Part shown: positions 2,456 through 17,830 of the stretch, piece after piece
How the letters are laid out: each line of letters begins with the position of its first letter
Position numbering within the stretch: the stretch's first letter is position 1
From: Planococcus wigleyi
GTDB taxonomy: Bacteria; Bacillota; Bacilli; Bacillales_A; Planococcaceae
Direction: 5' to 3'
DNA length: 64,000 nucleotides
Assembly (NCBI RefSeq): GCF_014836985.1
Contig: NZ_JACSPU010000005.1
Coordinates: 62,001-126,000 of the forward strand
Made by a program: the position numbers and the translations under genes
The notes under the pieces: generated by a model
What the model was told of the DNA's origin: nothing
What the model saw: the letters and a program-made list of their open reading frames with translations, nothing else
The model's database searches: none

Positions 2456-3244
2456 TTGTTTATTGAAGCCAAGCAAATCAATAAAGTTTATTACGATAAA
2501 AACAATAAACCGAATACGGTTTTGAAAGATATCGACTTATCGATCCAAAAAGGAGAATTTGTCTCTATCCTCGGACCTTCCGGCTGTGGCAAGTCCACTT
2601 TGTTGTCGATGATTGCCGGGCTTGTCAGCTCGACTTCCGGCGATATTATCGTGGATGGCAAAAAAGTCGTCAAGCCAGGAAAAGACCGGGGCATGGTATT
2701 TCAGCAAGCCGCCCTTTTCCCATGGATGAATGTAACTGAAAACGTCATGTTTCCTTTGCGCAAGGAAATGTCCAAAAAAGAAGGCTTGGAACGCGCACAG
2801 CATTTCTTAAAAATGGTACAGCTCAGCAATTACCCTTCCCACTATCCACACGAGCTTTCCGGAGGGATGCAGCAGCGGGTATCCATTGCCCGTTCGTTAG
2901 CCATGGACCCAGCTGTCCTGTTGATGGACGAACCTTTTGGCGCTTTGGATGAACAAACAAGAAGCCGCCTTCATGGTCAGCTCGAAGAAATTTGGATTGA
3001 TACGAAAAAGACCATCGTCTTTGTCACCCATAGCATTTCCGAATCGATCAAACTGTCGGACCGCATCATCGTCATGGGCACACGGCCCGGCACCATCCTG
3101 ACTGACATTCGGGTTGATATTCCCCGCCCCCGCGAACAGCATCGGCAGGAAATCGCTGCTTTGGAAGAACAGATTATGGGTCTTTTGAAAACAGAAATCG
3201 ATAAAGTCATAGATGAGGAGCAAGCATATGAAGCCGGCAGTTAA
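2456..3244 (+). CDS. ABC transporter ATP-binding protein, nitrate/sulfonate/taurine type (SsuB/TauB family)
   Basis: A 262-residue ATPase that energises import of a small organic anion, probably an organosulfur compound. Walker [10 protein letters not shown] is at 40-48, the signature LSGGMQQR at 134-141, and Walker B LLMDEP at 155-160. The C-terminal [14 protein letters not shown] motif is typical of the SsuB/TauB/NrtD group. The start is TTG, with a GGTGATC ribosome site 5 nt upstream. The next gene's ATG lies inside its 3' end, so translation is probably coupled. Neighbouring cysK and the sulfurtransferase favour sulfonate over nitrate, but the substrate is an inference. Confidence 0.88.
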
Positions 3245-3983
3245 ACGAATCATTTTCTTCGCCGCGCTCATTGTCTTCTGGGAACTGGGTTCCCGCTTTG
3301 AACTGTGGCATGAAACCATCCTTCCTTCCCCTATCAGCGTTTACGATTCGCTGGTAGCCGGATTTGCCGATATGACATTGGTCTACGACCTGATTGCGAG
3401 TTTCCGCAGATTGTTGATCGGCTTGGCTGCAGCTGTCATTATCGGAACCGGTATCGGTATCCTGCTGGCACGCTCGAAAACAGCAGATGAAACACTTGGA
3501 ACATTGGTGCTTGCTCTGCAAAGTGTACCAAGTATCGTTTGGCTGCCTCTGGCAATGATGTGGTTCGGCCTTGGCGAAGGTTCCATCATTTTCGTCGTCA
3601 TCTTGGGCGGAACGTTCGTGATGATTCTGAATGTCCGAACCGGCATCAAGAACGTCGATCCCCTTTTCATCAAAGCCGCACGGACAATGGGGTCGAACGG
3701 ACTGGACCTTTTTATTAAAGTGATCATTCCCGCTTCCGTTCCTTATTTCGTGACAGGCGCACGCCTTGCCTGGGCTTTCGCCTGGCGGGCATTGATGGCC
3801 GGAGAACTTCTCAGTTCCGGTCCCGGACTCGGATATACGCTCCGCTATGCATCCGATTTCGGCAATATGTCACTGGTCATCGGCGTGATGATCATCATTG
3901 GTGTCGTCGGCGCGATTGTCGATCTGATGATATTCCAGCGAATCGAGAAAAACGTCCTCAAGCGTTGGGGATTGGAAACATAA
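3228..3983 (+). CDS. ABC transporter permease, SsuC/TauC family
   Basis: A 251-residue inner-membrane permease with about six membrane segments and the binding-protein-dependent signature region around GLFIKV and IPASVPYFVTGARLA, which contacts the ATPase. I chose the ATG at 3228, not an in-frame ATG at 3213, because GAGGAG lies 7 nt before it. It overlaps the ATPase gene by 17 nt. It forms the channel of the importer with the preceding ATPase and the following lipoprotein. Confidence 0.88.
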   Translation: MKPAVKRIIFFAALIVFWELGSRFELWHETILPSPISVYDSLVAGFADMTLVYDLIASFRRLLIGLAAAVIIGTGIGILLARSKTADETLGTLVLALQSVPSIVWLPLAMMWFGLGEGSIIFVVILGGTFVMILNVRTGIKNVDPLFIKAARTMGSNGLDLFIKVIIPASVPYFVTGARLAWAFAWRALMAGELLSSGPGLGYTLRYASDFGNMSLVIGVMIIIGVVGAIVDLMIFQRIEKNVLKRWGLET

Positions 3984-4097
3984 ACTTATTTAACAGATGT
4001 TCACCAGGAAAAGCACTTTCAGCTATTGACCTTACGAATATTCGCCACGAATACTTTATTAAATAAAAAATTATTTTATACAGGAGGAACTCATCTT

Positions 4098-5084
4098 ATG
4101 AAACGTATCTTTTCACTTATTGCACCTGTCGCTATGGTCGGCGTGCTGGCAGCTTGTGGTTCACCTGAAGCTGGCGACGACTCATCTTCTGTCACTATCG
4201 GCTATTTCCCTAACCTGGACCACGTTCCTGCAATGGTTGCAAAAGACCAGGAAATGTATGAAAAGAACCTGGAAGACGGCACAGCTGTCGAATATGTAAC
4301 TTTCGCTGATGGAGCCGACTTTATGACAGCACTGAAAACCGGAGATATTGATGCCGGCCTTGTTGGACCTGGCCCCGCGATGAACAACTACACGAACGGT
4401 GCAGACGTTACCATGATTGCTGGCGGCGCTTCAGGCGGTACCGTAGTCATGGCCAGAAATGGCAGCGGCGTTGAGTCTGTTGAAGATTTCGCAGGCAAGA
4501 CGTTCATTACGCCACGCGTCGGCTGCACACACGATGTGCAATTTGAAACTTTCATGAAAGAGCATGGCATCACTTCTAACCGGATCGGCGGAGAAATGCT
4601 ACACCAAACTGGCAACCCGGCTCAGTATGAAGCGATGTTCGCTACTGAAAAAGTCGATGTTGCCGTTGCTCCTGAACCTTGGGCTTCTGTACTGAAGCAA
4701 AAGACTGGCGCTAAAGTGATTATTGAGCCGGATGAAATTTCATTCGGAACGACCTTGCCGGCTTCCGTTTTGGTGACTTCAAGCAAACTGATTGAGGAAA
4801 ATCCTGAAATGGTGCAAGGCATTGTTGATGCACATAAAGAAGCGACAGAATTTATCGCACAAAATCCGGATCAGGCAAAAGAGATCACGATCAACACAAT
4901 CGATGACATCACCGGCCAAAAGCTCGAAGCCTCTATCATTGACGGTGCATGGGAAAACATGATTTTTGATACTGCTCTTGCACCTGAAGAAATTCAAGCA
5001 TTCGGCGATTCATCGTTCGACTTGAAGTTCCTGAAAGAGCAACCGGATTTCGCTTTATTGACGGATACACAATTCCTTGATTAA
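4098..5084 (+). CDS. ABC transporter substrate-binding lipoprotein, SsuA/TauA/NMT1 type
   Basis: A 328-residue lipoprotein that captures substrate outside the membrane for the importer encoded just upstream. The signal peptide ends in the lipobox VLAAC. The mature part begins with the family start VTIGYFPNLDHVPAMVA, and DAGLVGPGPAMNNY and VAVAPEPWASVL are typical of the NMT1/SsuA fold. The ATG at 4098 has AGGAGG 10 nt upstream, and a longer frame from 4026 lacks a site. The 114-nt gap after the permease holds no clear terminator, so it is probably the last gene of the operon. The ligand is likely a sulfonate or related organosulfur compound, inferred from the neighbours only. Confidence 0.87.
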   Translation: MKRIFSLIAPVAMVGVLAACGSPEAGDDSSSVTIGYFPNLDHVPAMVAKDQEMYEKNLEDGTAVEYVTFADGADFMTALKTGDIDAGLVGPGPAMNNYTNGADVTMIAGGASGGTVVMARNGSGVESVEDFAGKTFITPRVGCTHDVQFETFMKEHGITSNRIGGEMLHQTGNPAQYEAMFATEKVDVAVAPEPWASVLKQKTGAKVIIEPDEISFGTTLPASVLVTSSKLIEENPEMVQGIVDAHKEATEFIAQNPDQAKEITINTIDDITGQKLEASIIDGAWENMIFDTALAPEEIQAFGDSSFDLKFLKEQPDFALLTDTQFLD

Positions 5085-8688: not shown

Positions 8689-10092
8689 TTATTCACAAGC
8701 CACAAATCCCGCGACCAAAGCGACCATCTCTGAATTTTCGACAGTCCGAAAATCCAGACATACCCCGTCATCTTGAATGCGGGTTATGATGGCCGGCTTG
8801 GACTGCCTTAAGCGAGCCGCTACTTGTTCAGCACTCAATGTCTGATGTTTCACTGCTGCCACATAGGTGGGGATTTCCACTCCTGGCATTGTGCCGCCGC
8901 CTATTTGGGAAGTGCTTGCCTTGAGCTCACTATGATACTTCGAAGACTGTGACTGCAACCTATCCACAAATGACTGTGCCTGCACTTGAATAGCTGCCGC
9001 CGGGCGGATTATGTCCCGGACCGTGGGCAGTTCATTGATTTTTTCAGGATCGCCCAAATACTGTTTCAAGGTTTCTTCCAATGCCGCCAACGTCATTTTA
9101 TCGACACGCAGGACACGTGCCAATTGATGCTTTTTCAATCGGTCGATCCATTCCTTTTTACCGGCAATCAACCCTGCCTGTGGACCGCCCAACAGCTTGT
9201 CACCACTGAAGGAAACGAGGTCTGCACCGCTTTCGATCACTTCACGGACAACCGGTTCATCTCCGATTCCGTGCTTTTTAAAGTCATATAGCGCGCCACT
9301 GCCTAAGTCTTCATAGAAAATGACGTCATGATGATTTTTCGCCAATGCGGCTAATTGAGACGTTTCCACAGTTTCTGTGAAACCGATCATCTTGAAATTG
9401 CTGGTATGGACTTTCATGATCATGGCGGTTTCTTCATTTATCGCCTGCTCGTAATCATAGAGATGGGTCTTGTTGGTCGTTCCGACTTCAACAAGCCGTG
9501 CGCCGCTTTCTTCCATAATAGAAGAGACACGGAAAGAACCGCCGATCTCCACCAATTGGCCGCGAGAGACAATAACTTCCTGCTCTTTGGCCAATGCACT
9601 TAGAACAAGAAACACAGCTGCTGCATTATTATTTACGACCATTGCAGCTTCAGCACCGGTTGCTTCCACTAATAAATCTTCAATAATATCGTGGCGCGAT
9701 CCACGCTTTCCTTCCGTTAAGCGATATTCCAGGTTCGAATAATTTTCTGCTGTTTTTACAACATGGGCGATAGACGCGGCACTTAAACGGGAACGCCCTA
9801 AATTGGTGTGCAGAACCGTACCCGTCGCATTGATTACCCGTTCCAAACGGTCTTTCTGCCACTCACTGATCCGGTCTTCAACCAAGTTGAAAAGCTGCCC
9901 GGCAAAATCCGGAACTTTTTCTTTAACCAGCGTCTCTTCCGCCAGCAAACTCTGCCGCAGTTTGCCTATTTCTTTTTGCAGGAATTCAGTCAGCTGCACA
10001 TCGCTCAGCTGGAACAGCATTTTCAATTCTTTAAAGCGAGGATCTTTCTGTAATTCATGAATCGCCGGAAGCTGCCGCAAATACTGTTTCAT
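8689..10092 (-). CDS. selA: L-seryl-tRNA(Sec) selenium transferase (selenocysteine synthase)
   Basis: A 467-residue PLP enzyme that converts seryl-tRNA(Sec) into selenocysteyl-tRNA(Sec) with selenophosphate from SelD. The PLP lysine is in SFSGDKLLGGPQAG (Lys 299). The N-terminal tRNA-binding helices and the RVINATGTVLHTNLGRS motif are typical of SelA. Length matches the family (about 460). I chose the ATG at 10092: its A overlaps the selB stop (TGATG), and GGAGGAG lies just upstream, so selB and selA are translationally coupled. A GTG one codon earlier is less likely. It is cytoplasmic, where SelA forms a large ring-shaped oligomer. Confidence 0.97.
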   Translation of the reverse strand: MKQYLRQLPAIHELQKDPRFKELKMLFQLSDVQLTEFLQKEIGKLRQSLLAEETLVKEKVPDFAGQLFNLVEDRISEWQKDRLERVINATGTVLHTNLGRSRLSAASIAHVVKTAENYSNLEYRLTEGKRGSRHDIIEDLLVEATGAEAAMVVNNNAAAVFLVLSALAKEQEVIVSRGQLVEIGGSFRVSSIMEESGARLVEVGTTNKTHLYDYEQAINEETAMIMKVHTSNFKMIGFTETVETSQLAALAKNHHDVIFYEDLGSGALYDFKKHGIGDEPVVREVIESGADLVSFSGDKLLGGPQAGLIAGKKEWIDRLKKHQLARVLRVDKMTLAALEETLKQYLGDPEKINELPTVRDIIRPAAAIQVQAQSFVDRLQSQSSKYHSELKASTSQIGGGTMPGVEIPTYVAAVKHQTLSAEQVAARLRQSKPAIITRIQDDGVCLDFRTVENSEMVALVAGFVACE

Positions 10093-12002
10093 CACTTCTC
10101 CTCCATCCAGTAACGCTGGTCTTCTGCCCGTCTCGTATAGTTTTGCTCATCCAGCAATTCCAAAAACGGGATCATGTATTTTCTCGATAAATTAAGGATA
10201 TCCTTTGCCTGTTTCAAATCAAATGAAGATCCCGTGTTATTTTTCAACAGCTGAAACGCTTCTTGAAACGCAGTCCGGTGGATCAACGTATCTTCCTTTA
10301 ATCGATAAGCTTGAGAAGTTTCGAGCAAATAAACTGTCAATTCAGCGATTTCCATTTTAGGCAACGGTGATCCAAGGAAATACTCTTCCCATTTCTTCAC
10401 TTGGAAACCGTCCTTCTCTAACGCAACAATTACCTGTTCCATTCGCGCACGCCACTTTTTCGGTAAATGCGGCTGGAAATGTGCAATCGCTACAAATTGA
10501 CCAGTTCGCTTGATTTCCTGTTGTTCACCCAATAAGTTCAAACTGTATTCAAGAAGCGGCTTCGGATAGGCCCCACTCGCCGACTGAATCATTTCCGCTT
10601 TGCCCATGCCGGTGCGCATTGGAAACTCCTCATGAAATTTCCGCAGCCTTTCCAGAAACTCATCTTTTATTTTAATGAAGGTTTTGCTTAAGCTATAGCC
10701 TTGTCGCGGAATTTCCATCCACAATCCCGAAGCCACCCCATCTGCTAAAGCAGCTTTCAAGACGCCGGCATCCAGTGAAGTCTGTTGCATCAGCTGCTGT
10801 TCATCAAGCAGCTGATATTTGTTCAGTGCATCCGCCACCAAATCCTGCGGCGTCCCTTGTTGGTATTGGCGAAGCATTTCAATGGTTTCTGTGCCAAAGC
10901 GGTACTTGCCGCCAGTTGGCTGGATCACCCAACCGCCTCCAATCGTCTCCATTGGACTTGGCCGGCGCAAAATAAACCGGTCGCCCCGGCGGACTACAAT
11001 TTTTTCATCCAAGCGAATTTGGCATAGTACTTCGTCCGGTGTCTGCTCCAGTTCCTTGCGGTCAAAAAAGACAATCTTCCCCATCACTTCAGATGTGCCG
11101 ATATGAACTTTGACAGCTGTGCGTTGTTTTAAAGGAGTGAATTTACGGCCAATCACCTGCAATGCAACATCGAGAGTATCCGTCACCAGGAAATTCTCGG
11201 AATCCACCAATACATCTCCACGTTTTACAGCTGTCCGATCGATGCCGCCAAGATTGATGGCTGTCCGCTGGCCTGCCCGTGCCTGTTCGCGTTCTTCGTG
11301 ATGCACTTGAATTTGTCTCGCTTTCACGGGAATTTCTCCCGGCAAGATCAGCAGCTGCGCCGCTTTCCGGACCACTCCTTCATACACGGTCCCTCTGACT
11401 ACTGTCCCTTGTCCTTGAACCGAAAAAACCTGATCAATCGGCAACCGGAAAGAACCGTAAGCGTCGCGGAATTCGGCAGTATTCAATTCTGTTAGAATCG
11501 TCTGCTTCAATTCATCTATCCCTGTACCTGAAAGGCTATCGAGCGTGACATAAGGCGCTCCGTGAAAAACAGTTCCCGACAACCGTTCTTTGATATCATC
11601 CATCACCAATTCGAGCATCACTTCATCAACCCGATCGATTTTTGAAATGGCCACAATGCAGCGTTTCACTCCCAAAAACTGCAGAATTTCCAGATGTTCT
11701 TCTGTCTGCGGCATAATGCCTTCGTCCGCTGCCACCACCAAAATCACCAAATCAATTCCCGCAACGCCCGCAATCATCTGGCGGATAAACCGCTCATGAC
11801 CCGGCACATCCACAATCGACGCGAAGACACCGTTTTCCAACTGCAAAGGCGCATAGCCCAATTCAATGGAAATGCCCCGTTCTTTCTCTTCTTTTAATCG
11901 GTCCGTATCAACATTCGTCAAAGCTTTCGTCAAACTCGTTTTGCCATGATCGATATGCCCAGCCATGCCGATGGTAAAATACCGTTCTTCCATTTTCTTC
12001 AC
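10092..12002 (-). CDS. selB: Selenocysteine-specific translation elongation factor
   Basis: A 636-residue GTPase that carries selenocysteyl-tRNA(Sec) to ribosomes stalled at UGA next to a SECIS hairpin. The EF-Tu-like part has G1 GHIDHGKT (15-22), G3 DVPGHERF and G4 SKID. It is followed by two beta-barrel domains and four C-terminal winged helices (about 380-636) that bind the SECIS. Length matches bacterial SelB (610-640). The GTG at 12002 has AGAAGG 3 nt upstream, and an ATG three codons later (11993) is an equally fair start. It is the first gene of the selB-selA pair, divergent from tRNA-Sec. Confidence 0.97.
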   Translation of the reverse strand: MKKMEERYFTIGMAGHIDHGKTSLTKALTNVDTDRLKEEKERGISIELGYAPLQLENGVFASIVDVPGHERFIRQMIAGVAGIDLVILVVAADEGIMPQTEEHLEILQFLGVKRCIVAISKIDRVDEVMLELVMDDIKERLSGTVFHGAPYVTLDSLSGTGIDELKQTILTELNTAEFRDAYGSFRLPIDQVFSVQGQGTVVRGTVYEGVVRKAAQLLILPGEIPVKARQIQVHHEEREQARAGQRTAINLGGIDRTAVKRGDVLVDSENFLVTDTLDVALQVIGRKFTPLKQRTAVKVHIGTSEVMGKIVFFDRKELEQTPDEVLCQIRLDEKIVVRRGDRFILRRPSPMETIGGGWVIQPTGGKYRFGTETIEMLRQYQQGTPQDLVADALNKYQLLDEQQLMQQTSLDAGVLKAALADGVASGLWMEIPRQGYSLSKTFIKIKDEFLERLRKFHEEFPMRTGMGKAEMIQSASGAYPKPLLEYSLNLLGEQQEIKRTGQFVAIAHFQPHLPKKWRARMEQVIVALEKDGFQVKKWEEYFLGSPLPKMEIAELTVYLLETSQAYRLKEDTLIHRTAFQEAFQLLKNNTGSSFDLKQAKDILNLSRKYMIPFLELLDEQNYTRRAEDQRYWMEEK

Positions 12003-12151: not shown

Positions 12152-12248
12152 GGGGTTGGATGGGTGACTGGTGTCTTCCTGGGTCTTCAAAACCCTGAGG
12201 GGCCTGCGTGCCAGGCTCGGTGGGTTCGATTCCCACACAATCCCGCCA
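12152..12248 (+). tRNA. selC: tRNA-Sec (anticodon TCA), selenocysteine tRNA
   Basis: A 97-nt tRNA with the selenocysteine hallmarks: a long acceptor helix (GGGGTTG at 12152-12158 pairs with CAATCCC), an extended D arm, the anticodon loop CTTCAAA with TCA, and a long variable arm (GCCTG/CAGGC). The T arm is GTGGG-TTCGATT-CCCAC, and CCA is encoded at 12246-12248. The discriminator base is G, as in other tRNA-Sec. The expected eighth acceptor pair appears as G-A, so the acceptor may have only seven true pairs. A weak promoter candidate (TTGCAC at 12099, TATAAA at 12120, spacer 15) lies upstream. It is not confused with a suppressor tRNA because of the long variable and D arms. Confidence 0.95.
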
Positions 12249-12446: not shown

Positions 12447-12472
12447 AATCACGGAATAAAAGGATGAAGAAA

Positions 12473-13468
12473 ATGAAAATTGTTTTAGCTTCACCGAATT
12501 ACCCGCAGCTGCGCGGCAACACAATAACAGTACAACGAATCGCAGATAATCTAAAAAAACTGGGTCTAGATACGGAAATTGTCTCGACAACAGACGACAA
12601 TACCATTCATTCGTTTCCGCCAGCTGATATCGTCCATGGATTTCATGCTTATAATTTCTATAAATTTCTGCAAAAGCTGGATCGAATGCCCGACCATTAC
12701 ATTGTCACGATCACAGGCACTGATCTCAACCATGACCTTTTTGATCCGGAGAAACGAAAAGATGTCCTCGCTTCTTTGCACGGAGCAGAAGCCATTCATG
12801 TATTCGATGAAAAAGCCAAAAATCTGTTGTTGAAAGAAGTTCCGGGAGTGGCTGATAAAGTGTTTATTATGCCCCAAGGCAATCTCCCTGCTCCCGAAGG
12901 AACTTCTCCTGTCAAAAAAGAACCGGGCAGTTTTTTGTTTTTCTTGCCTGCAGGCATTCGAAAAGTCAAAAACATACCTGCTGCAATTTCAATGCTCCAT
13001 GATTTGCATTTGCGCTATCCACAGCTTCGGCTCTGGCTGGTGGGACCCGTTCTGGAAGAAGCGGAAGGGCAAACCGTTCTCGGCCTTGTTAACCGCCACC
13101 AAGAATGGATTCGTTATCTTGGTCAAGTGCCGCATGAAGACATGGCGGCTATTTATCAACAGGCAGACGTGGTCTTGAACACTTCCCTGTCAGAAGGGCA
13201 ACCTGCAACGATACTTGAAGCGATGGGCTATGCTGTGCCTGTGCTTGCTTCGGATATTCCCGGCAACAGCAGCATCCTTTCCAATGGGGAAACAGGGCTT
13301 TTATACAAAAGCCGAAACGAATTCCTTGATTATGCTGAAAAGCTCATGAATAATAACAAAATAAGGGAAAGTATTGGCCATGCCGCTGAAGCTTATGTGA
13401 GAAAACATCATTCAAGTGAACGCGAAGCCGAAACTTTGCTGGAAATTTACAAGCGTATTGTAAAATAA
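12473..13468 (+). CDS. GT4-type glycosyltransferase, candidate selenosugar synthase (SenB-like)
   Basis: A 331-residue GT-B glycosyltransferase with no signal peptide or membrane segment, encoded between tRNA-Sec and selD. Family 4 marks are GNTITVQRIADNL at 15-27, TGTDLNHD at 81-88, and SLSEGQPATILEA, in which E241-x7-E249 binds the nucleotide sugar. From memory, the order and spacing of GN-x2-T-x2-R-x-A, TGTDLxxD, LGxxPH (217-221) and PVLASxIxGN (256-265) match SenB, the enzyme that joins selenophosphate to UDP-GlcNAc to give a selenosugar. SenB genes sit beside selD-like genes. It differs from BshA (about 377 residues, GGSG N-terminus). I chose the ATG at 12473, 10 nt after AAAGG. The selenium role is an inference from context and motifs. 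Confidence 0.6.
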   Translation: MKIVLASPNYPQLRGNTITVQRIADNLKKLGLDTEIVSTTDDNTIHSFPPADIVHGFHAYNFYKFLQKLDRMPDHYIVTITGTDLNHDLFDPEKRKDVLASLHGAEAIHVFDEKAKNLLLKEVPGVADKVFIMPQGNLPAPEGTSPVKKEPGSFLFFLPAGIRKVKNIPAAISMLHDLHLRYPQLRLWLVGPVLEEAEGQTVLGLVNRHQEWIRYLGQVPHEDMAAIYQQADVVLNTSLSEGQPATILEAMGYAVPVLASDIPGNSSILSNGETGLLYKSRNEFLDYAEKLMNNNKIRESIGHAAEAYVRKHHSSEREAETLLEIYKRIVK

Positions 13469-13518: not shown

Positions 13519-14568
13519 ATGGTTGAAAAAGAAACTGTAAAACTAACTTCTTTATCTACAAAAGGCGGTTGAGGCTGCAAAATTGGTCCTGAGGACCTGG
13601 CGCAGGTTCTGCGTCACTTACCGAAAAATGTAGATGATCCCAACCTTTTGGTCGGCCTGGAAACAGCTGACGATGCAGGTGTTTATAAAATCAATGATGA
13701 AACAGCATTAGTACAGACTTTGGATTTCTTTACCCCGATTGTGGACGATGCCTATATGTTCGGCCAAATTGGTGCAGCCAATGCCTTAAGCGATGTTTAT
13801 GCGATGGGTGGCAAGCCGCTGACTGTCATGAATATTGTCGCTTTCCCAATCAACACATTGGATAAAAGCATTTTAGCTGATATCCTGGCTGGTGCTTCTG
13901 ACAAGGTCAAGGAATCAGGCGCCACTTTGGTCGGCGGCCATTCAATCGATGATCAGGAACCGAAATTCGGACTTTCCGTAACCGGCACAATCCACCCCGA
14001 CCGGATCCGTTCCAACGCCGGTGCAAAACCGGGAGACCGGCTGATTTTGACCAAACCGATTGGTGTTGGCATCTTAACGACTGCCATCAAACAGGGTATT
14101 TTGGAAAAAGAGGATTTGGATGAAGTCATGAATGTCATGGCCACATTGAATAAAACCGCAGCAGAAGTGATGGAAAAATACACCGTCAATGCCTGTACGG
14201 ACGTGACCGGATTTGGCTTGCTTGGCCATACGATGGAAATCGCCAAAGGCGGCAATGTCGGCGTAACCGTGACAAACCAGGATGTCCCTGTCCTGAAGCG
14301 TGCAAAAGAGCTCGCCGAACAAAATGTCATTCCAGGCGGCACGAGAAAAAACCGTCAATGGCTTGCAGATGACATCGATTATGCCGATAACATCAGTGAA
14401 ATCGATCAATTGATCTTATGTGATGCTGTCACTTCTGGAGGACTGCTGATATCAGTCCCTGAATCAGAAGCCGAGGCTTTGCAGCAGGAGCTGTTGGAAA
14501 ACCACGTCCAATCAGCCATTATCGGCAATGTAAGCAGTGACAATGCCGGACGGATCCAAGTAGTTTAA
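13519..14568 (+). CDS. selD: Selenophosphate synthetase, itself a selenoprotein (UGA at codon 18)
   Basis: A 349-residue enzyme that makes selenophosphate from selenide and ATP, the selenium donor for SelA. The ATG at 13519 has AAAAGGAG 8 nt upstream. Codon 18 is TGA (13570-13572), in KGG-U-GCKIGPEDL, where other SelD proteins have the catalytic Cys of GCGCK, and the frame stays open to 14566. The following lysine and the ATP/Mg loops (ADDAGVYKI, GGHSIDDQEPKFG, TDVTGFGLLGH) are intact. A SECIS-like hairpin lies 17 nt after the UGA. An annotation that starts at 13648 would cut off the active site. Sec-containing SelD is known in several Firmicutes. Its synthesis needs SelA, SelB and tRNA-Sec, all encoded next to it. 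Confidence 0.96.
13585..13597 (+). promoter_or_regulatory. SECIS-like hairpin for the UGA codon of selD
   Basis: A 5-bp stem, GGTCC (13585-13589) with GGACC (13593-13597), closes a UGA triloop. The loop starts 17 nt after the UGA codon and has G as its second base. This agrees with the known bacterial SECIS rule of a G within the first two loop bases and a spacing of about 16-37 nt. Confidence 0.8.
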
Positions 14569-14593: not shown

Positions 14594-14643
14594 AAAGCTT
14601 AAAATTAAGCTTTGTGCAAGGACTCTGCAGGAGTCCTTGTTTT
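14594..14643 (+). terminator. Hairpin plus terminator between selD and the PhnD-like gene
   Basis: AAAGCTTAA/TTAAGCTTT (14594-14613) is followed at once by a 9-bp terminator stem, CAAGGACTC/GAGTCCTTG (14617-14639), and TTTT. The transporter genes therefore need their own promoter or controlled read-through from selD. Confidence 0.75.
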
Positions 14644-14684
14644 GATATATGCTCTATACCCAAAACGATAAAGAGGTGCTTGTA

Positions 14685-15587
14685 TTGAAAAAATGGATTT
14701 TAACCGTTTCTATACTTTTGCTGGCCTTGTTCCTGTCAGCCTGCGGAAACGATTCAGCTGAAGAAGAAAGTTCAACAACAGGCGACACCCAGGAACCCTT
14801 CACTATCGGTGTAATTCCAGCCCAAACAGAAGGTGAAATGCAGACGGCAATGGATAAACTGCAAACTATCCTTGCTGAAGAATTGGATCGCGAAGTCGAA
14901 ATTGAAGTATATCCCGACTACAATGGCGTCGTTGAATCCATGAATTACGATCAAATTGATATGGCTTACCTTGGTCCGTTAACCTATGTAATCGCTGAAG
15001 CAAACAGCAACGCCAAAGCCATCATTACCCAATTGGTTGATGGCGAACCTTTCTACAATGCCTATGTCATCACCCATACAGACAATCCAGTTGCTTCTTT
15101 AGACGAGTTATTGGAAAATCCCGGTGAAGTGCAGTTCGCTTTCGGCGATCCAAATTCAACTTCCGGTTCCTTGATTCCATCTATTGAACTGCAGGACCGC
15201 GGTGTCTATGAGTCTGAGCAGGAAAATGAATTTGAAACTGTTCGTTTTACCGGATCACACGATGCAACGGCATTGGCTGTTCAAAACAAACAAGTTGATG
15301 CAGGTGCTATCGACAGCGCCATTTATAATCAATTATTGGAATCAGGTAAAATCGATGAAGACCAATTAAAAATCATCTGGGAGTCTGAGCCTTTGTTCCA
15401 ATACCCATGGGCTGTGCTTGAAAGCACTGATGATGAAACTGTCGCAAAACTGCGGGAAGCATTTTTGGCGATAGAAGATCCCGAAATCCTTGATGCATTC
15501 GGCGCAACCGGTTTTACGGAAGCTGACAATGCAGATTACGAAAGCATCAAACAAGCCGCGATAAAGCAAGGAATCATTGAAGAATAG
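14685..15587 (+). CDS. PhnD-like ABC substrate-binding lipoprotein, candidate selenium-compound binder
   Basis: A 300-residue lipoprotein of the phosphate/phosphite/phosphonate-binding PhnD superfamily. The signal peptide ends in LFLSAC (lipid-modified Cys 20). The mature part shows the family segments FTIGVIPAQTEGEM, MAYLGPLTYVIA and FGDPNSTSGSLIPS, where the last forms the anion-binding loop. The start is TTG at 14685, with AAAGAGGTG upstream. It sits directly after selD and heads a three-gene importer. From memory, one PhnD-superfamily clade is annotated as a putative selenate/selenium binding protein because it lies beside selD. A phosphonate substrate is the alternative, but no phn catabolic genes are in the window. 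Confidence 0.78.
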   Translation: MKKWILTVSILLLALFLSACGNDSAEEESSTTGDTQEPFTIGVIPAQTEGEMQTAMDKLQTILAEELDREVEIEVYPDYNGVVESMNYDQIDMAYLGPLTYVIAEANSNAKAIITQLVDGEPFYNAYVITHTDNPVASLDELLENPGEVQFAFGDPNSTSGSLIPSIELQDRGVYESEQENEFETVRFTGSHDATALAVQNKQVDAGAIDSAIYNQLLESGKIDEDQLKIIWESEPLFQYPWAVLESTDDETVAKLREAFLAIEDPEILDAFGATGFTEADNADYESIKQAAIKQGIIEE

Positions 15588-15589
15588 AG

Positions 15590-16354
15590 TTGATTAGCTT
15601 GTGGTTTAAGAAAAGCAATTTTATTACAGTATTAATCGTTCTGGTGCTGATTTATTTCAGCATGAGGATTACGGAGTTCGACCTCACTAAGTTCAAGGAT
15701 TTCCGCAACATGATCGACTTCCTGGCCCAATGGTGGCCGATGGATTTTTCCAAGTTGCCGGGTATGCTGGAAGATACATTCGAAACTTTGGCAATGGCCT
15801 TTCTGGGAAGTGTCTTCGGTTTATTGATCGCTTTGCCGATCAGCTTCCTTGCGGCACGCAATACCGCGCCTTCAAAGGCCCTTTTCCAATTTACACGTGT
15901 CACACTCAGCTTTGTACGTTCCATCCCTGAAATTGTATTCGGCTTGATTTTGCTGACAACACTCGGTCTCGGACCATTTCCCGCTGTCATCGCCATTATG
16001 TTCCATAATATCGGCGTTTTTGGGAAGCTTGTTTCCGAGTTGATCGAAGCCGCCGATCCGGGTCCACAGGAAGCGATGCGTGCAGTCGGCGCCAAAAACT
16101 GGCTGGCCAACCTGTTCAGCATCCTTCCACAAATTTGGCCGAATGTGCTGTCCCAGTTTTTCTATCGTTTTGAAGTCGCCATCCGCACCTCGCTTATTTT
16201 AGGGTTTATCGGCGGCGGCGGTATTGGCCAGCGCTTGTTCAATGACTTTAAAACGTTTCAATACTCTTCCGTATCGCTGGATGTCTTGATCATTATGATC
16301 ATGGTTATTGCCATCGACTTTTTGGCCAGCACCATTCGAAATCGCGTCATTTAA
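15590..16354 (+). CDS. PhnE-like ABC transporter permease
   Basis: A 254-residue membrane protein with about six segments and a permease coupling loop around DPGPQEAMRAVGAKNWLA. GGGGIGQRLFNDFKTFQYS near the end is typical of PhnE/PtxC permeases. The start is TTG, 2 nt after the lipoprotein stop, with only a weak ribosome site, so translation is probably coupled. It forms the channel of the importer with the genes on either side. Confidence 0.85.
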   Translation: MISLWFKKSNFITVLIVLVLIYFSMRITEFDLTKFKDFRNMIDFLAQWWPMDFSKLPGMLEDTFETLAMAFLGSVFGLLIALPISFLAARNTAPSKALFQFTRVTLSFVRSIPEIVFGLILLTTLGLGPFPAVIAIMFHNIGVFGKLVSELIEAADPGPQEAMRAVGAKNWLANLFSILPQIWPNVLSQFFYRFEVAIRTSLILGFIGGGGIGQRLFNDFKTFQYSSVSLDVLIIMIMVIAIDFLASTIRNRVI

Positions 16355-16366
16355 AGGAGTGGCTAT

Positions 16367-17137
16367 ATGATTCAAGTGAAAAATTTAACTGTACGTTACC
16401 CAAATATGAAAACCGAAGCGCTTGCTGATGTCAGCCTGTCTCTCGAAAAAGACGATTTTGTCTGTGTACTAGGCAAAAGTGGTGCAGGAAAGTCAACATT
16501 CATCCGTTGCTTGAACGGCCTCCAAAAGCCCACTGGCGGGGAAATCCATTTTGATGGGCAAGACATTTCTTTTCATAACGAAGAACAGCTGCGCAAAGTA
16601 CGCCGCCAGACCGGGATGATCTTTCAACATTTCAGCCTGATTCCCCGCTTAAGCGTCATGCAAAATGTCCTGACCGGCATGTTCGGCTACCGTTCTTCTT
16701 TCAAAAACCTGATTGGTTGGTTCACAGCTGAGGAGTTGGCTTTAGCTAAAAAAGTCATTGAAGATGTCGGCTTGTCGGAAATGGCATATCGGAAAGTCGA
16801 GCACCTGAGCGGCGGACAGAAACAGCGTGTGGGCATTGCCCGTGCCTTGGCCCAACAACCAAAAATTTTGCTTGGAGATGAACCGGTTGCAAGCTTGGAC
16901 CCCGGCACTTCCAATCATATCTTCACGCTGCTGACGGAAATGCATGAGCGTTTGAACCTGCTGACCATCATCAATGTTCATGACATTGAATTGGCGAAAC
17001 GCTATGCTACCCGCATCCTGGCTTTAAAAGACGGCAAGTTGATCTTCGACGGGCCACCTGAAAAATTCTCTGATTCCCAATACCGGGAAACTTATACATC
17101 CGAACCGCAAACGGCTTATTTCGATGCTGGAATTTGA
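16367..17137 (+). CDS. PhnC-like ABC transporter ATP-binding protein
   Basis: A 256-residue ATPase with Walker A GKSGAGKST (35-43), signature LSGGQKQR and Walker B ILLGDEPVASLDP. The GDEPVASLDP form and the FKNLIGWF insert are characteristic of the PhnC/PtxA group. AAAGGAG lies 6 nt before the ATG. It completes the PhnD-PhnE-PhnC-like importer. The next gene begins only 21 nt after its stop, so the deacetylase is in the same operon. Confidence 0.88.
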   Translation: MIQVKNLTVRYPNMKTEALADVSLSLEKDDFVCVLGKSGAGKSTFIRCLNGLQKPTGGEIHFDGQDISFHNEEQLRKVRRQTGMIFQHFSLIPRLSVMQNVLTGMFGYRSSFKNLIGWFTAEELALAKKVIEDVGLSEMAYRKVEHLSGGQKQRVGIARALAQQPKILLGDEPVASLDPGTSNHIFTLLTEMHERLNLLTIINVHDIELAKRYATRILALKDGKLIFDGPPEKFSDSQYRETYTSEPQTAYFDAGI

Positions 17138-17158
17138 CAGCAAAAGGAGATGATCTTC

Positions 17159-17794
17159 GTGATTAAAAGTCCATGAGCAGTTGACCAATCCAGGGTCGTG
17201 TACGACTCTACTCACCCGCAAATCGTAACGCTCAATCAAGACGGCAGCAACAAGTCTGTGGTCCTCAGTTTTGACGATGGCCCAAGCAAAGTGCTGCCGC
17301 AGATTTTAGACATCCTGAAACAGGAAGCCGTGCCTGCCCTGTTCTTTTGGCAGTCTCGCCTGTTATATCCGGCAAGGCCATGGCAACGGCTGCTGGACGA
17401 GGGACATGTTGTCGGCACACATTCCATGAAACACCGCAATTTGGTGCAGCTGTCCTACGAGGAACAATACCTGGATCTCAAGAACAGCGTAACCCATATT
17501 GAAAGCATCACCGGCACACGGGTTAATTATTTCCGTCCGCCCTATGGACGTTTTGATTCCAATACCTTAAAAGCAGCAAAGGCATTAGGCTTAACAACCG
17601 TCTTGTGGCGAATTGCCTCGATGGATTGGGAACTGAAAGACAATCCCGATCAAATCATTCGCTATGTGGCAGAAAACCTGGAGGATGGCGCCATCATTCT
17701 CTTGCATGAATTAGAGCAAACCGTAGCTATCCTGCCTCAACTGATCCAAGCCATCAAAAAACAGGGCTACAGCTTCTCTTTGCTTCATGAATAG
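17159..17794 (+). CDS. NodB-type deacetylase, candidate selenoprotein (UGA at codon 6)
   Basis: A metal-dependent NodB-fold deacetylase of 211 residues if read from the GTG at 17159, which has AAAAGGAG 9 nt upstream. Codon 6 is TGA (17174-17176), giving MIKSP-U-AVDQSR, and the frame then stays open to the stop. A SECIS-like hairpin follows 22 nt later. Catalytic motifs are intact: SFDDGP (37-42, base D39 and metal D40), H88/H92 in HSMKH, RPPYG (126-130), DW (156-157) and LLHE (181-184). No signal peptide is seen, unlike peptidoglycan deacetylases, so a cytoplasmic small-molecule substrate is likely. A start at the GTG at 17198 would avoid the UGA but has only CAGGG 4 nt upstream. The Sec reading is an inference. 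It is the last gene of the PhnDEC-like operon. Confidence 0.65.
17192..17209 (+). promoter_or_regulatory. SECIS-like hairpin after the UGA of the deacetylase gene
   Basis: A 7-bp stem, AGGGTCG (17192-17198) with CGACTCT (17203-17209, one G-U pair), closes the tetraloop UGUA. The loop starts 22 nt after the UGA and has G in second place, meeting the bacterial SECIS rule. It is longer than the selD hairpin but has the same loop logic. Confidence 0.55.
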
Positions 17795-17799
17795 TAAAA

Positions 17800-17830
17800 A
17801 ACAGCGCCGATTTCCGGCGCTGTTTTTTTA
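17800..17830. terminator. Terminator of the PhnDEC-like/deacetylase operon
   Basis: A 10-bp stem, AACAGCGCCG with CGGCGCTGTT, is followed by seven T residues. It also has an A-run on the left for the converging DinB gene. Confidence 0.9.

Follow-up and report, generated by a model that had tools for sequence, protein, structure and literature searches.

A gene at 17159..17794 on the forward strand of the window (i.e., the whole 64,000-nt stretch of Planococcus wigleyi DNA analyzed here) almost certainly encodes a genuine selenoprotein, a cytosolic deacetylase of the CE4/NodB type for which we use the working name SecPDA. In this gene, SelB, tRNA-Sec and a SECIS-like hairpin would recode the UGA at codon 6 as selenocysteine (Sec), giving a full product of 211 aa. 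The evidence is comparative and computational only, without wet-lab, protein or labelling data. An initial annotation, made from the sequence alone, had proposed a candidate new deacetylase selenoprotein at this locus; the proposal is supported by the cross-genome evidence, and no such family was found in the literature searched.

The SecPDA reading frame

SecPDA starts with a GTG at 17159, which is preceded, after a 9-nt spacer, by the ribosome-binding site AAAAGGAG (17142..17149, forward strand). As the initial annotation had stated, direct reading of the sequence gives five codons from this start (V/M-I-K-S-P), the Sec UGA codon (17174..17176, forward strand) and 205 in-frame codons before the TAG stop at 17792-17794. 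Directly 3' of this stop is an intrinsic-terminator-like hairpin with a T run (17796..17829, forward strand), which was seen by eye and not by pattern scan. The phnC gene just upstream ends in an ordinary TGA, 21 nt 5' of the SecPDA GTG, and UGA decoding therefore depends on context. Recoding of UGA as Trp was ruled out by this phnC stop and by the presence of the Sec machinery.

The claim that this genome uses Sec also held. The window carries selA (8689..10095, reverse strand), selB (10092..12002, reverse strand) and the tRNA-Sec gene, selC (12152..12244, forward strand), and selD (13519..14568, forward strand), too, encodes a selenoprotein, its in-frame UGA lying at 13570-13572 (GG-U-GCKI). 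The hairpin of selD had been described as comparable to that of SecPDA; selD does have a hairpin, but a different one (GGUCC-UGA-GGACC).

Conservation and distribution of the UGA codon

A total of 48 SecPDA orthologues were found in 46 genomes, from 24 species of Planococcus plus about 20 further lineages of Bacillales type. Each of the 48 has UGA at the same place and none has Cys; the consensus around the UGA is [S/N/T/C]-P-U-[A/V/I]. The search of 46 Planococcus genomes yielded 24 orthologues with 59-99% identity, and every one reads [M/V]-[I/R/M]-K-[S/N]-P-UGA-[A/V]-V, preceded by an SD-like site; sequence comparison also showed such a site before ATG in the orthologues. Other genera of the family also have Sec-type SecPDA genes, as do MAGs and Pseudalkalibacillus, Aquibacillus, Salinibacillus, Evansella, Anaerobacillus, Halalkalibacter, Alkalihalobacillus and Salipaludibacillus, with still more among further genomes of the class and phylum; the lowest identity among members is 38%. 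Two copies per genome occur in Anaerobacillus arseniciselenatis (L083 and L089) and in genome G074 (L061 and L062), where one copy adjoins a lone phnD-like gene. These counts represent related sequences, not independent events or separate gains. In a tree against 80 other CE4 domains, SecPDA forms a monophyletic clade (support 100/100) and thus has one origin.

The codons on both sides of the SecPDA UGA carry an in-frame coding signature. For codon pairs with a single difference beside the UGA, the synonymous share on either side is 58% in the coding frame, compared with 4-27% in the other frames. In addition, the 24 of 46 Planococcus genomes that have SecPDA are exactly the 24 with tRNA-Sec and a SelB over cut-off, while all 22 genomes without SecPDA are also without Sec machinery. 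Outside Planococcus, SelB was present in 21 of 21 SecPDA genomes tested (G837 was not among them). The comparative evidence shows that the UGA is translated and that SecPDA requires the Sec machinery, and the initial expectation that this UGA would occur only in genomes with Sec machinery was met.

A second expectation, Cys at the Sec position (SPC) in Sec-lacking relatives, failed. No Cys homologue was found in the genome contigs or among the matches in the samples of the order (261 genomes), the class (399) and the phylum (398); in Sec-less relatives, the SecPDA gene is missing altogether rather than Cys-substituted. Such homologues are usual, though not defining, for bacterial selenoproteins, and their absence from the genomes searched is unusual and counts against the selenoprotein interpretation. 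An apparent SecPDA pseudogene was found in Alkalihalophilus pseudofirmus OF4 (10001-10539 of L090), where SP-UGA is kept, the hairpin is lost and the frame is broken; this strain retains SelB.

The SECIS-like hairpin

The SECIS-like hairpin of SecPDA (AGGGTCG-TGTA-CGACTCT; 17192..17209, forward strand) pairs 17192-17198 with 17203-17209. The 7-bp stem and the UGUA loop, beginning 22 nt past the UGA with G in the second position, are as initially described. Viewed in a single genome, this hairpin is not significant, since 6.5% of TGA trinucleotides throughout the window precede a stem of at least 7 bp satisfying the loop and distance rules, and the 77-nt SecPDA stretch folds just 1 sd better than shuffles. 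Comparison across genomes, by contrast, places it far beyond chance. The bSECIS criteria (i.e., a stem of 4-16 bp, a loop of 3-9 nt with G in the first two positions, and 16-37 nt from the UGA; PMC13188914) are satisfied by sequence in 47 of the 48 members, with stems of 5-8 bp located 19-28 nt from the UGA and loops that are UGUA throughout, except for one CGUA. At an MFE limit of -7.5, the window hairpin and most members pass and a few fold weaker. One divergent member, L162, has a hairpin of a different kind. In another, L163 (7877-8530, genome G349), the tail contains two UGA codons (D-V-U-L-U) and the hairpin is farther off, 28 nt from the first of these; this gene also adjoins a Rieske-type gene.

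The stem covaries across lineages. In 30 distinct hairpins, 92.4% of cells are paired, as compared to 28-40% when the partner is slid, and both-sided changes (e.g., C-G to U-A) occur in five of the seven stem pairs. For example, the stem has GUUG/CAAC in Halalkalibacter-type sequences and GUCG/CGAC in Planococcus. Within the hairpin, the codons for V13-V14-Y15 show no variation even at synonymous sites, in contrast to those of most other invariant SecPDA residues.

The SecPDA protein

SecPDA matches the Pfam family Polysacc_deac_1 (PF01522). Its AlphaFold model is confident (pLDDT 90.8) and matches CE4 enzymes, with a Z of 26 to BC1960, and D39, D40, H88, H92 and H183 are invariant in the alignment. 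Family match, fold, D-H-H metal site and catalytic D and H identify an intact CE4/NodB deacetylase; the deacetylase activity is inferred. While SecPDA has these features in common with the polysaccharide deacetylases PdaA, PdaB, PgdA and BC1960, it differs from them in lacking a signal peptide or membrane anchor and in carrying an N-terminal Sec, and it stands apart from other CE4/NodB deacetylases as a clade of its own that reaches none of the NCBIfam equivalog cut-offs. Sec6 and Y15 are the sole invariant residues of the N-terminal tail. That Sec would sit in a short tail ahead of the catalytic domain, as first proposed, held; the suggested redox or metal-ligand role is undecided, with residues 1-9 disordered and Sec not placed in the model. 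No signal peptide, membrane segment or hydrophobic stretch was found in SecPDA (best 15-residue hydropathy 0.41), and we therefore infer that its substrate is likely soluble and cytosolic.

The selenium gene cluster and its SenB-like glycosyltransferase

The initial annotation missed the link of SecPDA to a putative PhnDEC importer and a glycosyltransferase (GT). Upstream of SecPDA, all on the forward strand, are genes encoding a phnD-like substrate-binding lipoprotein (14649..15587), which also has a sub-cut-off match to TIGR04553, a model for a putative selenate SBP, a phnE-like ABC permease (15590..16354) and the phnC-like ABC ATPase (16367..17137). A GT4/GT-B glycosyltransferase resembling SenB (12464..13468, forward strand) is encoded between selC and selD. 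The order selAB - selC - GT - selD - phnD - phnE - phnC - SecPDA is conserved in Planococcus and several other genera. Halalkalibacter-type genomes keep selB-GT-phnDEC with SecPDA elsewhere, and SecPDA directly adjoins the GT in two genomes (L163 and L196). A terminator-like site 3' of selD (14616-14640) makes it possible that phnDEC-SecPDA is transcribed separately from GT-selD. Upstream of the sel genes, beside cysK, the window also contains an ABC transporter nearest to the SaoA/SaoP models, below cut-off (2456-5084).

A structure search of the PDB with the GT gave SenB in complex with UDP-Glc as the top match, with BshA near-tied. The SenB model TIGR04348 is usually the second-best NCBIfam model for the GT, at 72-96 bits. 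This is below its cut-off of 300 bits, and the GT is therefore not filed as SenB. The window GT scored 303 bits to NF038229, a 'GPMC system' GT (cut-off 400); no relevant paper on the 'GPMC system' was found in the literature searched. Although identity to SenB is only about 20%, the two share fold, length and matching active-site residues. The invariant GT residues G18, N19, T22, H58, D87, R166, K169, E244 and E252 have as SenB counterparts G19, N20, T23, H58, D86, R155, K158, E231 and E239 (SenB active-site residues are described in PMC10891094 and PMC10702425); RxVK and EGx6E were matched by alignment to 8k5u, and GNxxT and the rest by motif and spacing.

GT homologues were found in 22 of 22 genomes checked, including A. 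pseudofirmus with its broken SecPDA; the 11 Sec-less Planococcus checked had none. An exclusive GT-SecPDA link was rejected at class level, where 45 of 399 genomes had the GT and 15 had SecPDA. GT homologues (E <= 1e-30) were present in 30 class genomes without SecPDA; some adjoin selD, selA, selB or phnDEC and many do not. Because the GT is wider than SecPDA and is linked to sel genes or phnDEC without it, the GT is placed in a selenium cluster, with SecPDA as an added part of this cluster.

A proposed pathway and the role of Sec

Our preferred reading is that SecPDA acts on a soluble selenium-linked amino sugar in a pathway formed with SelD, the SenB-like GT and PhnDEC. This reading is inferred, as regards both the substrate and what Sec does, and we hold it tentatively, with the balance tipping slightly against it. 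In the proposed pathway, PhnDEC, encoded directly 5' of SecPDA in the window, would import a selenium source, SelD would make selenophosphate, and the SenB-like GT would join selenium to an N-acetyl amino sugar taken from a UDP-sugar. SecPDA would then take off the acetyl group through its CE4 metal centre (D40, H88 and H92), with D39 and H183 acting in catalysis. By analogy, GT followed by deacetylase would parallel the start of bacillithiol and mycothiol synthesis, where BshA/MshA and BshB/MshB follow the same logic, a GT and then deacetylation of a GlcNAc conjugate. BshB and MshB are LmbE-type enzymes, whereas SecPDA is CE4, and the SecPDA cluster, unlike those pathways, contains selenium genes. 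With regard to the selenoneine pathway of SenB, the cluster differs by an added deacetylase gene and by the failure to find EgtD in Planococcus.

Sec in the flexible N-terminal tail may bind a selenol substrate by forming a Se-Se adduct, or may couple enzyme production to selenium supply. Chemistry on a selenol substrate, redox or metal binding, and a translational selenium gate each remain possible, and no evidence presented here decides among them. The failure to find a Cys form fits a function that depends on selenium as such. A bolder version, in which the dedicated SelD/SenB-like GT/SecPDA/PhnDEC pathway makes or uses an amino-selenosugar and Sec is chemically involved (e.g., through a Se-Se bond with a selenol substrate), is no more than a possibility.

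Alternative explanations

The alternative that survives best, and is possible, puts Sec chemistry at the centre but has SecPDA act on something other than a selenosugar; the tail would be a redox switch or metal ligand, and the substrate a cell-wall precursor or another cytosolic N-acetyl sugar. Peptidoglycan or chitin are the substrates of the nearest characterised relatives, and some members have C-P-U, which is similar to redox motifs of the CxU type. However, the absence of a signal peptide or membrane segment and the neighbouring selenium genes and SenB-like GT argue against this alternative.

It is unlikely that Sec is mainly a selenium gate. In that case a UGA at codon 4-6 would end translation early, and at little cost, under selenium shortage, the deacetylase would be produced only while Sec-tRNA is at hand, and the chemistry of the residue would be minor. 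Favouring a gate, the UGA always lies within a few codons of the start, in a disordered tail, and Sec is not replaced by any other cysteine; on the other hand, the P that precedes the UGA and the V/I/A that follows it are conserved outside the hairpin, and this, with the C-P-U of some lineages, suggests chemistry.

Synthesis of selenoneine, by the SenB-like GT and SelD followed by a SenA/EgtB-type enzyme, is very unlikely. The GT is SenB-like, as this explanation needs, and in Salipaludibacillus neizhouensis (10001-13403 of L088) SecPDA is followed by the ergothioneine genes egtB and egtD. However, this neighbour is EgtB above its cut-off and not SenA, and selenoneine synthesis needs no deacetylase. 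For Planococcus, selenoneine was rejected on the absence of EgtD matches in 46 genomes; no control genome matched either, though the model gives the L088 EgtD 390 bits.

Finally, that the UGA is a real stop, with the protein beginning at GTG 17195/17198 (V-Y-D) and the five codons being a leader peptide or chance, is very unlikely: ordinary gene calling does give a 198-aa ORF from GTG 17198, and the GTG at the V-Y-D place does not vary (its position in the SECIS loop explains this), but no consistent SD precedes it at a proper distance, the UGA is never replaced and SecPDA tracks the Sec machinery exactly. The internal start at 17198 was rejected on the coding signature, in one and the same frame, on both sides of the UGA. 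Homologues that start at V-Y-D without upstream conservation, which the initial annotation had named as refuting its proposal, were not what was seen; upstream residues including the UGA are conserved.

SecPDA among known selenoproteins

Like known bacterial selenoproteins, SecPDA combines an in-frame UGA with a downstream bSECIS-like hairpin and occurs only in selABC genomes. Listed families are mostly redox proteins with Cys forms, whereas SecPDA is a hydrolase. A deacetylase selenoprotein is absent from the table of 87 families in PMC9312934 and from the main texts of PMC13188914 (a 2026 review) and PMC12013277 (deep-Sep), and no NodB or polysaccharide-deacetylase selenoprotein was found in the openly licensed literature searched. 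Methods that depend on Cys homologues would miss SecPDA, and gene callers truncate it to a start at V-Y-D.

Formate dehydrogenase is a common reason for bacteria to keep Sec. In Planococcus, formate dehydrogenase alpha subunits were found in Sec-using and Sec-less species alike and have no in-frame stop, and a Sec-containing formate dehydrogenase was therefore rejected as the explanation for the sel genes; SecPDA and selD may thus be main reasons for Sec retention in this genus. With SecPDA, the known selenoproteins gain a family of an unexpected kind, widespread in Bacillales, including haloalkaliphiles. The genes around SecPDA point to a selenium metabolite not yet reported, and the SenB-like GT may mark selenium clusters more widely.
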